Source: Halobacteriales archaeon YIM A00010 (GTDB lineage: Archaea; Halobacteriota; Halobacteria; Halobacteriales; Haloarculaceae). From it: a stretch of DNA of 64,000 bases. Positions 3,190 through 8,306 of this stretch are shown here, one piece after another (position 1 is the stretch's first letter; each line of letters starts with the position of its first letter). Where the stretch lies: the NCBI GenBank assembly GCA_025041175.1, contig JAKCFJ010000002.1, forward strand, positions 186,001 to 250,000. Direction: 5' to 3'. Position numbers and translations under genes: made by a program. The notes below the pieces were generated by a model, which saw only the letters and a list, made by a program, of their open reading frames with translations, ran no database searches and was not told where the DNA came from.

Positions 3190-3879
3190 GTGACGCGATC
3201 ACCCCGGTCGCTTGTGCTTGTGGTGGCATTCCTCGTTGTTGCGATTCCGGCGGGCGAATTCGGTACTGCTGGCCCATCAGAGACGGATTCCTCGCTTACT
3301 GCGACGGTCACGGTGGTCGTCGATGGGGAGACGGTCGGCGTTCAGTACCCGAACGGCACGACCGACAGGGTGCGGCTGTTGGGTGTCGATACGCCCGACG
3401 TACGCGACGAGAACGACCCGACAGAGTTCGAAGGGATACCGGATACGGAGGCGGGCAAACAGTGTCTCGATGACGCTGGATCGGATGCGCGCGCCGACAC
3501 GACGGCCGCGCTCGAGCCCGGCGAGCGGATCGATCTCGTGCTCGATGCGGAGGCCGATACGCGCGGGTACTACGGGCAGTTGCTCGCCTACGTCCACGAC
3601 GATGGCCGGAATCTCAACCACGAACTCGTCAGGACGGGCCACGCCCGCGTGTCCGACAGCTCGTTCAGCCGGAGTGATCGCTTTTATGCGGCAGAAGCAG
3701 TCGCTCGAGCGTTCGAACGAGGGCTGTGGCGCTGTCGGGATCCGAGTGGCGTGAGTGGGTCGTCGATCACGGAGACTCGCGCCGGTGCCGTTGGTACCCA
3801 TCCTGCGATTTCGGATGGCGTGCTCTTCGAGAACACTGATACTGCCGGACAGAGTCGGGTACGGATTGCGACGGACTAG
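3190..3879 (+). CDS. Secreted thermonuclease-like (SNase) protein with altered catalytic residue
   Basis: The 229-residue protein starts at GTG, has an N-terminal hydrophobic signal (residues 6-21) and a staphylococcal-nuclease fold from about residue 38 to 178: VVDGETVGV, RLLGVDTPDV, YYGQLLAYV and LNHELVRTGHARV are all recognisable. These enzymes cut DNA and RNA outside the cell. The first catalytic Arg is present (Arg62 of RLLGVDTP), but the second, normally in YGR(L/G)LAY, is Gln130 (codon CAG). In staphylococcal nuclease this Arg helps stabilise the transition state, so activity may be reduced. The C-terminal 50 residues are not part of the domain. Confidence 0.82.
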   Translation: MTRSPRSLVLVVAFLVVAIPAGEFGTAGPSETDSSLTATVTVVVDGETVGVQYPNGTTDRVRLLGVDTPDVRDENDPTEFEGIPDTEAGKQCLDDAGSDARADTTAALEPGERIDLVLDAEADTRGYYGQLLAYVHDDGRNLNHELVRTGHARVSDSSFSRSDRFYAAEAVARAFERGLWRCRDPSGVSGSSITETRAGAVGTHPAISDGVLFENTDTAGQSRVRIATD

Positions 3880-4206: not shown

Positions 4207-4480
4207 TGAGCGAGTAGAACTCGATATTCCGGCTAGTCAGCGTCGAAGGCGAACGACCGTTTGCTTTCGTTTGCTCTGTTGGAAATATCATATTCTATTG
4301 TGTTCTAGAGAAAAATTCTCTCAAGAATACCTCTCAGTTGTAGGTACTAGTGGCTACGGAAGGGCCACAGTCCAAATAGGTGCCGATTCGGACGAATAGC
4401 CACAACAGCGCGGCAGTACTTCTATAACTTATCCATATACTACGATGGTTATTTTACTATGGTTCTCTTATTATCTACCG
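4207..4480. other. AT-rich intergenic stretch upstream of the phosphate permease
   Basis: No gene is convincing here. A TATA-like element (TCTATAACTT) lies at 4421-4430, suited to transcription of the permease starting near 4450. Confidence 0.4.
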
Positions 4481-5659
4481 ATGGTAGAAACCCTACTCGC
4501 AATCGGGATCGTTGCGTCTATTTTTGTCGGGTTCAATATCGGTGGCTCGTCCACCGGGATTGCGTGGGGGCCACCCGTCGGTGCTGGTATCGTCAAAAAG
4601 ACGACGGCGGCAGCACTCATGACATTTTTTGTCTTTCTCGGCGGCTGGACTGTCGGACGAAACGTGATGGACACGTTGAGCGAAGGGATCATCACGATCG
4701 ATCTCACGCTCACGGCGGGTGTCGCCGTCCTCTTCTTCATTGGACTAGGCATCCTCATCGCCAATATCTTCGGCGTCCCTGTTCCAACGTCGATGACGAC
4801 CGTCGGCGCGATAGCCGGTCTTGGACTGGCGACAGACACGCTCAACTACGCAACAATTGCCGAAATCATCTCGTGGTGGGTTGTGACGCCGGTTATTGGG
4901 TTCTGGATCGGCGGCGTTATCGGACGGTACATCTACCCAGAAGTCAACCGACGGGTACAGATCAAGAAGTCGGATGGTCCATTACTGACCCTTGATCAGG
5001 ACGGAACGATTCCGAAGCCAACGTTCGGCCCAAACACGACGTGGATAGAACTGGGTAGCACGGCAGTTGTACTCGTTATCGGCTGTTACATGGCATTCAG
5101 CGCCGGTGCAAGCAATGTACCCAACGCCGCCGCACCACTTGTCGGCGGAGCAGGCGGACTCCCTAACGATACTGCGATCATCATCGCCACGCTTGCGATC
5201 GGAATTGGTGGGTTCACCATTGCCCGCCGGACGATGGAATCAGTCGGGGGCGAACTGAGTGACATTCCGCTGCTCGCAGCCCTCTTCGTCATGGTAACTG
5301 CATCGACGATTACAACGCTTCTCTCGTGGATCGGGATTCCGATCAGTCTCGTGATGGCGACAGTGATGACGATCGTTGGCATCGGATGGGGCCGTGCAAC
5401 TCGTCCGATCACCTTCCGTGAGGCGGTCAGCCGCGACGTGGAAGACCGTGAGATCGTCCCCGGTGCAATCACCGCCGAAGAGATGGAAGGGAAACCAGCT
5501 GCGCCGATCGGTGAAGAAGAGCCAGAAGAGGTGCTCGACGCGGGTGATCTCTTCAACCCTCGGGCGGTTGTCAAGTACGTCTCAATGTGGATTATCGGCC
5601 CTTCAGTGTCTACGATCCTGGCCTACGGGTTCTTCGTTCTCCTCCCGGGCATCGCCTGA
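4481..5659 (+). CDS. pit: PiT-family inorganic phosphate permease
   Basis: This low-affinity phosphate transporter of the PiT family has about ten membrane helices in two halves. Both halves contain the family signature: FNIGGSSTGIAWGPPVGAGI near the N-terminus and FSAGASNVPNAAAPLVGG in the middle, which replace the usual GxNDxANxxG motif. A hydrophilic loop lies between. I prefer the ATG of MVETLLAIG; an in-frame ATG 12 codons upstream (4445) would add a hydrophobic stretch and is possible because a TATA box sits about 20 bases before it. The UspA remnant just downstream fits a common haloarchaeal pit-uspA arrangement. Confidence 0.88.
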   Translation: MVETLLAIGIVASIFVGFNIGGSSTGIAWGPPVGAGIVKKTTAAALMTFFVFLGGWTVGRNVMDTLSEGIITIDLTLTAGVAVLFFIGLGILIANIFGVPVPTSMTTVGAIAGLGLATDTLNYATIAEIISWWVVTPVIGFWIGGVIGRYIYPEVNRRVQIKKSDGPLLTLDQDGTIPKPTFGPNTTWIELGSTAVVLVIGCYMAFSAGASNVPNAAAPLVGGAGGLPNDTAIIIATLAIGIGGFTIARRTMESVGGELSDIPLLAALFVMVTASTITTLLSWIGIPISLVMATVMTIVGIGWGRATRPITFREAVSRDVEDREIVPGAITAEEMEGKPAAPIGEEEPEEVLDAGDLFNPRAVVKYVSMWIIGPSVSTILAYGFFVLLPGIA

Positions 5660-6033: not shown

Positions 6034-6771
6034 TCAGATCCCGCTGTAGTCCTTTGGGATCGCTTCGCCCGCAGTGACGTTCTGCCCGTCGCTACCGGGA
6101 ATCGACAGGTGTGTCTGATTTTGCTCGACGGTAAAGTGTAGGTGGGGACCGGTCGAATTCCCTGTATCACCCATCCCCCCGATCTTCTGCCCCCTCGAAA
6201 CGCTCTGTCCTTGGGAAACGTCGAAGCTGTTCAGGTGGCAGTACATCGTCTGGTAGCCGTTTTCGTGGCCGAGCTTGAGGTAGTTGCCACAGCCACCTGA
6301 TTCGAAGCTTCTGATGTCTACGACGCCGTCCCGCGCGGCGTAGATCGGCGTTCCGATGATGCCGTCGTTGCCGAAGTCGACCGCGTAGTGACCGGGACGA
6401 GCACCGTACGGGGAGGTGATATACCCGGTGATGGGCCACGTGAAGTCCGCCCCACCGCCGCCACCGCCGGTTGATGTGAGGTGGCGTTCGACCGACCAGC
6501 CCCAGACGTTGTCGTCCAGCCAGTGAACGCCCCACCACGTGTAGCCGTCTTTGTTCTCGGGTCCGTTCATGATCTCACCGACAGTTCCCGGCTCCATCGT
6601 GGCGAGGATCTCCGAGTCGGTGCCCGGTCGGTGGCGCGTGTTCAAGCTCGTCGTCGGCTCAACGCGGTCGTCCATGGCGAAGGCGCTGGCCGAACCGCTC
6701 AAGACTGTTGGGGCTGCTAGTGCTGTCGCTGCGGTGCTGAGTAGCTTCCGTCGTGTGAATTTGCGTGTCAT
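6034..6771 (-). CDS. Exported M23-type peptidoglycan endopeptidase with SH3 domain
   Basis: The 245-residue protein has a twin-arginine signal (TRRKLLSTAATALAAPTVLSGSASA), a bacterial-type SH3 domain at about residues 42-98, a polyglycine linker and a LytM/M23 metallopeptidase domain from about 112 to 240. All M23 catalytic features are present: zinc ligands His128 and Asp132 (HYAVD), His179 (YCHL) and the HLH motif with His210 and His212. M23 enzymes cut peptide cross-bridges of bacterial murein, which archaea lack, so a target in bacteria is likely. The ATG of MTRKFTRR is chosen because the upstream in-frame extension would bury the signal peptide. It lies 50 bases downstream of a transglycosylase gene with the same SH3 module, probably in one operon. 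Confidence 0.85.
   Translation of the reverse strand: MTRKFTRRKLLSTAATALAAPTVLSGSASAFAMDDRVEPTTSLNTRHRPGTDSEILATMEPGTVGEIMNGPENKDGYTWWGVHWLDDNVWGWSVERHLTSTGGGGGGADFTWPITGYITSPYGARPGHYAVDFGNDGIIGTPIYAARDGVVDIRSFESGGCGNYLKLGHENGYQTMYCHLNSFDVSQGQSVSRGQKIGGMGDTGNSTGPHLHFTVEQNQTHLSIPGSDGQNVTAGEAIPKDYSGI
6476..6660. repeat. 185-bp direct repeat encoding the SH3 module, copy 1
   Basis: This segment matches 6832-7016 at all but about two of 185 positions (offset 356 bases). It encodes the SH3 domain of the M23 protein, from NTRHRPG to WSVERHL. Confidence 0.9.
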
Positions 6772-6821
6772 CGTTTTTCGCTCCGGATATCGTTCTGTTT
6801 GATCGCCGTTCTGTGCGCCAA

Positions 6822-7550
6822 CTATGCGTGGGTGAGGTGGCGTTCGACCGACCAGCCCCAGACGTTGTCGTCCAGCCAGTGAACGCCCCACCACGTGTAG
6901 CCGTCTTTGTTCTCGGGTCCGTTCATGATCTCACCGACAGTTCCCGGCTCCATCGTGGCAAGGATCTCCGAGTCGGTGCCCGGTCGGTGGCGCGTGTTCA
7001 AGCTCGTCGTCGGTTCGATCCGATCGCCATCGTTAAATCCACCACCGCCACCGCCGCCACCGTAGCGGTCGCGGTAGACGGCGGCGGTGTCTTTGACGTG
7101 GTTGACGTAGCTCCAACTGTGGTTGTAAGCGTACAGCGCGTCGTCCCAGTTGCCGGGCGCACCCGACGCGGTGAGGTAGTTGGCGGCGCTCGGGATTGCG
7201 TCTCGGTAATCACAGATGTCCGTGACCCCGTCGTTGTTCCCGTCTACGCCGTACGCATCCCACGTCGCCGGCATGAACTGCATCGGTCCGCGTGCGCCCG
7301 CCGGGGATTCGGCACAACCATCCACATACTGACCGTGTTGGGTTTCAACCCAACCAACCCCAGCTAGATACGTCCAGTCCAATCCCCAGTTGTTCCCCGT
7401 CCGACGGTATTGATCGAGATAGTGTGACGGAATGTCACCGGTAGCGTCCGCCTTCGTGGTGCCGGTCAGTGCCGAGACGGCACCGACCGTTGCGATACCT
7501 GTACTGGCAATGGTCTTCAGAACAGTTCGTCGCTTGGGTGTATCGTTCAT
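6822..7550 (-). CDS. Exported lytic transglycosylase-like protein with SH3 domain
   Basis: The 242-residue protein has an N-terminal export signal (residues 1-35, with KRR near the start), a lysozyme-fold transglycosylase domain at about 40-165, a polyglycine linker and an SH3 domain at 180-238. GVGWVETQHG supplies the predicted catalytic Glu69. GARGPMQFMPATW and DGNNDGVTDICDYRDAIPSAANYL match lytic transglycosylases of bacterial and phage cell-wall enzymes, which cleave the glycan strands of murein. It is the first gene of a likely two-gene operon with the M23 endopeptidase. The two activities would attack both glycan and peptide parts of a bacterial wall. The substrate is inferred, since haloarchaea have no murein. 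Confidence 0.85.
   Translation of the reverse strand: MNDTPKRRTVLKTIASTGIATVGAVSALTGTTKADATGDIPSHYLDQYRRTGNNWGLDWTYLAGVGWVETQHGQYVDGCAESPAGARGPMQFMPATWDAYGVDGNNDGVTDICDYRDAIPSAANYLTASGAPGNWDDALYAYNHSWSYVNHVKDTAAVYRDRYGGGGGGGGFNDGDRIEPTTSLNTRHRPGTDSEILATMEPGTVGEIMNGPENKDGYTWWGVHWLDDNVWGWSVERHLTHA
6832..7016. repeat. 185-bp direct repeat encoding the SH3 module, copy 2
   Basis: This is the second copy of the SH3-coding segment, at the 3' end of the transglycosylase gene. Near identity at the DNA level, not only in protein, points to recent duplication or gene conversion. Confidence 0.9.
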
Positions 7551-8306
7551 CGTGTTATCATTGACGTCCTCAGGTGTCTCGTATCGTTACGATCTATGGT
7601 GGGTTTCCGCCATCCTGGTGTATGTCGACTCGTTATCGTTGCTCCCAACCCACCAGTCGATGGAGTTGTTGCAACGGCTGCGTTTTTCGTGCCTGATCCG
7701 GTCATCGACGCTGATAGCCGTATCGAAGCTGCTTGTGCAATCGCTGGCAACGTGATCTTCCCATCAGTGATCGGGATGGATTCGGTGTTTGTGGCGATCG
7801 GGTTTCTAGGGTTGTCTCAATTCCACCGAATATTCTCCGAAACAGGGGATTCTCCACTTCGTTCGGTTCGATTGGGTTCCGACGCAGCAGTCGTGCGTCG
7901 ATATCAGTAGCTGATGTTGTTGATTCACAATATGTTGTGTTTCCCCCGGGCTTACAGCCGAGCTTCAGAACCGTTTGTGGCTTCCGGTCTAGTTGGGCCT
8001 GTATCGGTTGTTTTTGCTCTTCTGTTTCACCCATACCACTTATGAAATTCTAACACCTCTTAAATCCCAACCCTAGTAATATATTGCTTTTATTGGTTTC
8101 TATGTGTGGAATTCGACCAGTGAAATTTCCACGACAGAATTCAAGGCAGAGTGACCCCGAGGCTTGCACATTCGCTGGGTCATCGCGCTCGATTACGAGG
8201 ACAGCGCGCTCAATGGAGCGATCTACGCGCACATCTGGTTATCGAAGCCGAAACCCCAAGCGCCAGCCCGACAGTTCCCCGCCCGTCAGGCTTGACGAGC
8301 CGGGCG
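7551..8306. other. Spacer of about 750 bp without a convincing gene
   Basis: A minus-strand reading of 110 codons at 7702-8034 (MGETEEQKQPIQAQLD) starts about 25 bases after a TATA-like TTTAAGA, so it may once have been expressed. Its second half loses protein character and another frame takes over, which suggests decay. I recognise no family. The rest, up to the lipoprotein stop, shows only short readings with no domain. Confidence 0.3.

Follow-up and report, generated by a model that had tools for sequence, protein, structure and literature searches.

The window analysed, a stretch of 64,000 nucleotides, covers positions 186001-250000 of contig C2 of strain YIM A00010 (G000), whose genome comprises 5,969,888 bases on 7 contigs. 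Two adjacent genes on the minus strand encode predicted murein hydrolases. Gene 1 (6822..7550) codes for a Tat-type lytic transglycosylase (SLT) of 242 aa with a C-terminal SH3 module. Gene 2 (6034..6771) codes for a Tat-type SH3-M23 endopeptidase of 245 aa. They are separated by a spacer of 50 nt (6772..6821).

Lytic transglycosylases cut glycan strands and leave 1,6-anhydro-MurNAc ends. The gene 1 product matches the Pfam families SLT_2 (E=1.9e-13, 50.8 bits, cut-off 24.3) and SLT (E=6.3e-07). Pfam, homologue alignment and PDB matches place the catalytic domain at residues 38-163 (7062..7439), with SltB3 and MltB/Slt35 as the nearest PDB structures. Glu69 (codon 7344-7346) sits in 'GVGWVETQHG' and is invariant in an alignment of 15 haloarchaeal homologues. 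Having the family score as well as the catalytic glutamate, the predicted protein is a putative SLT_2 lytic transglycosylase. It scores 39.8 and 40.7 bits against the MltB equivalogs TIGR02282 and TIGR02283, below both cut-offs (281.4 and 248.45). The signal region (7443..7550, MNDTPKRRTVLKTIASTG...KADA) contains the presumptive twin-arginine motif KRRTVLK, recognised by eye and by pattern, and its RR is invariant among homologues. Upstream, within a small frame on the minus strand (7702-8034), a 21-nt repeat (7963-7983) resembles the start of gene 1 (7515-7535, 86%). It is perhaps a decayed duplicate or a chance match.

The gene 2 product matches Peptidase_M23 (E=5.7e-29, 100.6 bits, cut-off 28.7). 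Its catalytic domain, assigned by Pfam and homologue alignment, comprises residues 108-245 (6037..6450) and holds the complete HxxxD, H and HxH motifs of peptidase family M23. The five residues (H128xxxD132, H179, H210-L-H212) are all invariant in 18 haloarchaeal homologues. The signal region (6676..6771, MTRKFTRRKLLS...SASAFA) has an apparent twin-arginine motif, TRRKLLS, found in the same manner and likewise with an RR invariant among homologues. A longer frame from GTG 6894 was rejected: it runs into gene 1, and the ATG at 6771 opens directly at the twin-arginine signal. The original prediction had described neighbouring genes for Tat-type enzymes with complete catalytic motifs. Pfam scores over cut-off, the invariance of Glu69 and the five M23 residues, and the twin-arginine motifs all agree with this description.

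A single SH3 module had been proposed for both proteins, and the two copies are indeed 97% identical in DNA across 195 nt. In gene 1, DNA repeat and profile comparison locate the module at residues 171-242 (6825..7040, core repeat 6832-7026). In gene 2 it occupies residues 31-102 (6466..6681, core repeat 6476-6670). Among the window proteins, Pfam SH3_4 gave 14.5 bits in P0002 (cut-off 24.1), and P0001 had no SH3 match. Relatives exceed the SH3_3 cut-off of 27 (L112, 49.6; L111, 40.9). The best PDB match of the SH3 profile is 4krt, an SH3 repeat of autolytic lysozyme (E=1.3e-4). From such sequence profiles the module is assigned a probable SH3b fold. Most likely, it would hold both enzymes on bacterial murein; its ligand could instead be an archaeal surface glycan.

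The same module type was collected from 392 haloarchaeal genomes, yielding 82 non-redundant proteins, nearly all with twin-arginine motifs. Thirty-three of these lack SLT and M23 domains, and 28 of the 33 carry Amidase_2 or glucosaminidase domains (representatives confirmed by Pfam). The other five comprise two proteins with a domain of no assigned family, one alpha/beta-hydrolase from contig C3 of the present genome, one SH3-SH3 protein and one probable frame artefact. The pair thus appears to belong to a set of SH3-tagged haloarchaeal murein hydrolases with SLT, M23, Amidase_2 or glucosaminidase domains. Two SH3 proteins (L107 1207-2259 and L109 1060-1833) have a conserved C-terminal domain that is SleB-like by eye. 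Pfam assigned L109 to no family, and so the SleB identity was dropped and both were kept out of the hydrolase count. The alpha/beta-hydrolase on C3 (L003 358-1740) is exported, DUF900-like and of basic pI (9.07), and has two SH3 modules; in YIM 93972 and in G006 a hydrolase resembling it is joined to SH3s and Amidase_2 in one protein (855 aa). Three adjoining SH3-tagged hydrolases, a glucosaminidase, an M23 protein and an amidase, form one cluster directed at three bond types in another genome (L028, G067). A second exported neighbouring pair, Amidase_2 and a glucosaminidase without SH3, occurs on contig C4 of the present genome (L332 8770-10065). This glucosaminidase is 81% identical to an SH3-tagged glucosaminidase of the Halocatena genome G003.

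Halocatena SH3 copies are closer within a genome than between species (89% vs at most 78% in G005; 88% vs 83% in G006). Trees that place all SLT-SH3 or all M23-SH3 copies in one clade were rejected (AU p=0.0003 and 0.0002, respectively). Together, these results indicate a homogenisation of the module within genomes, presumably by gene conversion or repeated swapping.

Order and spacing of the two genes are kept in all five Halocatena genomes examined (G000 and G003-G006), with spacers of 37-50 nt; G002 was left out of this count, as it repeats the 3,915,224-bp contig and the coordinates of G003. Given these spacers in four other Halocatena genomes, the two genes probably form one short transcription unit or operon. 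Among the 392 genomes of the order, the SLT-SH3 protein was found in 18 and a close SH3-M23 protein in 23. Both occur together in 17 genomes vs about 1 expected, a figure inflated by kinship. In family f17 no SLT gene was found within a few kilobases of an M23 gene. A 397-aa SLT-SH3-M23 fusion is present in a genome of another haloarchaeal family (G355, family f7). Its SLT domain groups with the Halocatena SLTs in a supported clade, so that a transfer between families with a subsequent fusion is likely. Halocatena salina (G005) carries the pair on a megaplasmid (NZ_CP096020, 532,509 bp).

Phylogeny had been suggested as a means to recognise a bacterial origin. Among the matches listed, bacterial SLT relatives show 50-53% identity (Rubrobacter, a Virgibacillus plasmid, Planobispora). 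In a quick tree with long branches, the haloarchaeal SLTs form one clade among bacterial sequences (SH-aLRT 99), for which a single acquisition by haloarchaea is the simplest reading. The suggestion held in this respect, but the tree singles out no donor lineage. A viral origin was rejected: viral contigs and phages gave distant relatives only (about 53% at best, in the catalytic part only), and no copy was found in a halovirus. The patchy distribution and the bacterial relatives would also suit laterally acquired genes that persist as a legacy under no selection. This explanation is hardly credible, since the catalytic residues are invariant across genera, gene order and spacing are conserved, GC3 resembles that of other genes of the genome, the pI is acidic, and the haloarchaeal sequences form one clade. 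Beside the pair, the window contains genes for a homologue of staphylococcal nuclease that seems to be exported, and for a PHO4 phosphate transporter (3190-3879 and 4445-5659). A phosphate transporter is found near the pair in H. salina as well. The neighbours possibly help to recover phosphate from cells that have been lysed.

In 2025, two modular murein hydrolases from a single archaeal species, Woldo and Danwoldo, were described as killing bacteria (PMC12352652). Killing was demonstrated for both, and its dependence on catalysis for Woldo only. That study defined its hydrolase set by catalytic domains combined with binding domains, both as given by Pfam; a signal peptide was common, not required. 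The catalytic domains of the pair (SLT_2/SLT and Peptidase_M23, over cut-off) correspond to this definition. The SH3 of the window scores under the Pfam cut-off and places the pair outside the set if gathering cut-offs were applied, while relatives pass SH3_3. Consequently, the SH3 group was probably missed by the survey. From name, length and architecture, NF052336 (named for HSB1_00310) is taken to represent Woldo, and NF052335 Danwoldo. Gene 2 scores 191.7 bits against NF052336 in the M23 half only and does not reach the whole-protein cut-off of 500 bits. Over 138 aa, its M23 domain shares 86% identity with the corresponding domain of L079, a protein from another haloarchaeon that has two PG_binding_1 domains and reaches 568.6 bits with NF052336 (cut-off 500). 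The glucosaminidase half of L049 obtained 263 bits with NF052335.

AnmK is the kinase for 1,6-anhydro-MurNAc, the end produced by a lytic transglycosylase, and was searched for this reason. It is encoded at C2:573 kb (322 bits; NCBIfam equivalog NF007148, 424.6 vs 387). AnmK relatives include levoglucosan kinase. The surrounding region (C2:547-576 kb, within L330, C2:545000-563000, and L331, C2:563001-582000) harbors two NamZ exo-muramidases (255.6 and 243.9 bits, N domain) and an AmlB-type beta-lactamase-like gene. In addition, it encodes an exported SH3-NlpC/P60 protein, an exported amidase (Amidase_2), an exported GH18 protein, an IclR-like regulator and peptide ABC importers. NamZ together with AnmK served to recognise a murein/MurNAc catabolic locus, and both occur in this genome, outside the window. 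About 356 kb of the same replicon separates the pair from the locus. Tat motifs were read by pattern on the hydrolases and on neither NamZ nor AnmK, as expected if digestion took place outside and catabolism inside the cell. MurQ was not found in the genome (a single partial match of 34 bits vs a cut-off of 302), nor was NagZ on the scanned part of C2. The catabolic route is thus incomplete as read. An enolase-family gene of the locus could encode an L-Ala-D/L-Glu epimerase; it scores better to other subfamilies. Between NamZ and AmlB, most loci encode a conserved protein of no Pfam family (L330 10136-11320, minus strand), which may be a new glycosidase involved in breaking down muropeptides. 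An incomplete search of the literature returned no account of murein catabolism in haloarchaea.

AnmK was detected in 26 of 392 haloarchaeal genomes. NamZ is close by in 18 of the 20 neighbourhoods read, and an NagZ-type GH3 also in 16. Genomes with the SLT contain AnmK more often than others (12/18 vs 14/374, p=6e-12), an association confounded by relatedness. It is weaker after splitting, with p=0.011 outside family f17 and p=0.041 within the listed f17 genomes. The candidate catabolic locus is a finding separate from the pair and makes it more probable that some haloarchaea use bacterial walls as food.

PMC12352652 asked whether bacteria are rivals or food, and left scavenging possible. The pair might serve scavenging only, digesting dead walls as food and leaving living cells intact. 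The clustering of NamZ, AnmK, the AmlB-like gene, amidase, NlpC/P60 and peptide importers, and a full set of extracellular bond-cleaving enzymes in the genome, point in this direction. Such an exclusive use is nevertheless unlikely, as enzymes with catalytic domains of these families are lethal to Halalkalibacterium halodurans (PMC12352652). Furthermore, three Halocatena genomes (G004, G005 and G006) have the pair but no AnmK, and feeding through AnmK thus does not generally accompany it. The same three genomes are in accordance with bacteriolytic antagonism alone, like that of Woldo and Danwoldo, in which the murein-catabolic genes elsewhere would have no connection to the pair. The Woldo-type M23 domain of gene 2, the patchy distribution, and the megaplasmid of H. 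salina, matching the plasmid bias of archaeal hydrolases (PMC12352652), fit this possibility too. It is somewhat doubtful, because 20 of the 26 AnmK genomes possess SH3-tagged hydrolases, and an SH3-tagged glucosaminidase is located inside the NamZ/AnmK locus of Halocatena G003.

In Streptomyces, comparable enzymes are employed in development. YIM A00010 forms hyphae and spores (PMC10067837), and the pair might remodel an archaeal surface polymer during this life cycle. As main use, self-development was rejected, and a self-directed role is very unlikely: the pair is absent from YIM 93972 (G001), the best-studied hyphal strain, and related genes in family f17 fall outside the genus. The walls are S-layers (PMC10067837), and the domains joined to the SH3 module elsewhere are murein-specific. 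MurB is absent from the 5.97 Mb genome, in line with the earlier view of an archaeon lacking murein.

Degradation of foreign murein by the exported pair, for attack and in this strain probably also for feeding, is the preferred explanation, with a probability of roughly three quarters. Following Tat export, the lytic transglycosylase would cleave glycan strands and the M23 endopeptidase peptide cross-links, while SH3b would anchor both to bacterial murein. Jointly, the enzymes would dismantle a polymer that the archaeon itself does not have. Attack on bacterial walls would be the main use, the catalytic domains being in part common to the bactericidal Woldo and Danwoldo. Fragments would in this strain probably also be eaten by way of a locus elsewhere that encodes NamZ, AnmK, NlpC/P60 and peptide importers. 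The original prediction of an antibacterial two-enzyme weapon is favoured in part, by the complementary murein hydrolase chemistry, the intact catalytic residues, the shared SH3 module, the conserved pairing, the bacterial relatives and the M23 likeness to a Woldo-type protein. Its motive needs to be widened, however: given AnmK, two NamZ and the other murein-catabolic genes of the genome, food would be no weaker a motive than combat. It may even be, at odds a little short of even, that some haloarchaea without own murein live partly on bacteria. They would apply secreted, commonly targeted hydrolases together with import and breakdown by NamZ, NagZ, AmlB, AnmK and peptide transporters. The group is a new form of the archaeal murein hydrolases reported in 2025, set apart by its presumed SH3 binding module and its operon of two chemistries. 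A possible pathway to catabolise the products of the pair is encoded in the same genomes, which makes the published question of weapon or food directly testable.

Several known systems resemble the pair in part. Like Woldo (M23 and two PG_binding_1 domains, Halogranum salarium B-1), gene 2 encodes a predicted Tat-type archaeal M23 murein hydrolase. It differs in an SH3 module on the N-terminal side, replacing PG_binding_1, and in a transglycosylase as operon partner. Danwoldo (glucosaminidase and two PG_binding_1 domains) likewise forms, with Woldo, a two-enzyme arsenal with one common type of binding module, and its glucosaminidase type is also found on an SH3 chassis (L049). The partner in the window would instead cleave glycan by another chemistry, that of a lytic transglycosylase, and has no PG_binding_1. 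Gene 1 shares the catalytic glutamate and the GPMQFMPATW core with SLT_2 enzymes of the MltB/Slt35 type, but is a short exported single domain with SH3, under the equivalog cut-offs. Its nearest relatives among the matches listed, SLT-NlpC/P60 proteins from plasmids of Gram-positive bacteria and actinobacterial SLTs, have other architectures, without an SH3 of the window type and without the Tat pair. Bacillus subtilis reportedly possesses a MurNAc/NamZ catabolic cluster. The haloarchaeal loci similarly group NamZ, NagZ, an AmlB-like gene and a MurNAc-sugar kinase. They differ in AnmK, which replaces MurP/MurQ, in peptide ABC importers and an IclR regulator, and in their host, which is free of murein.
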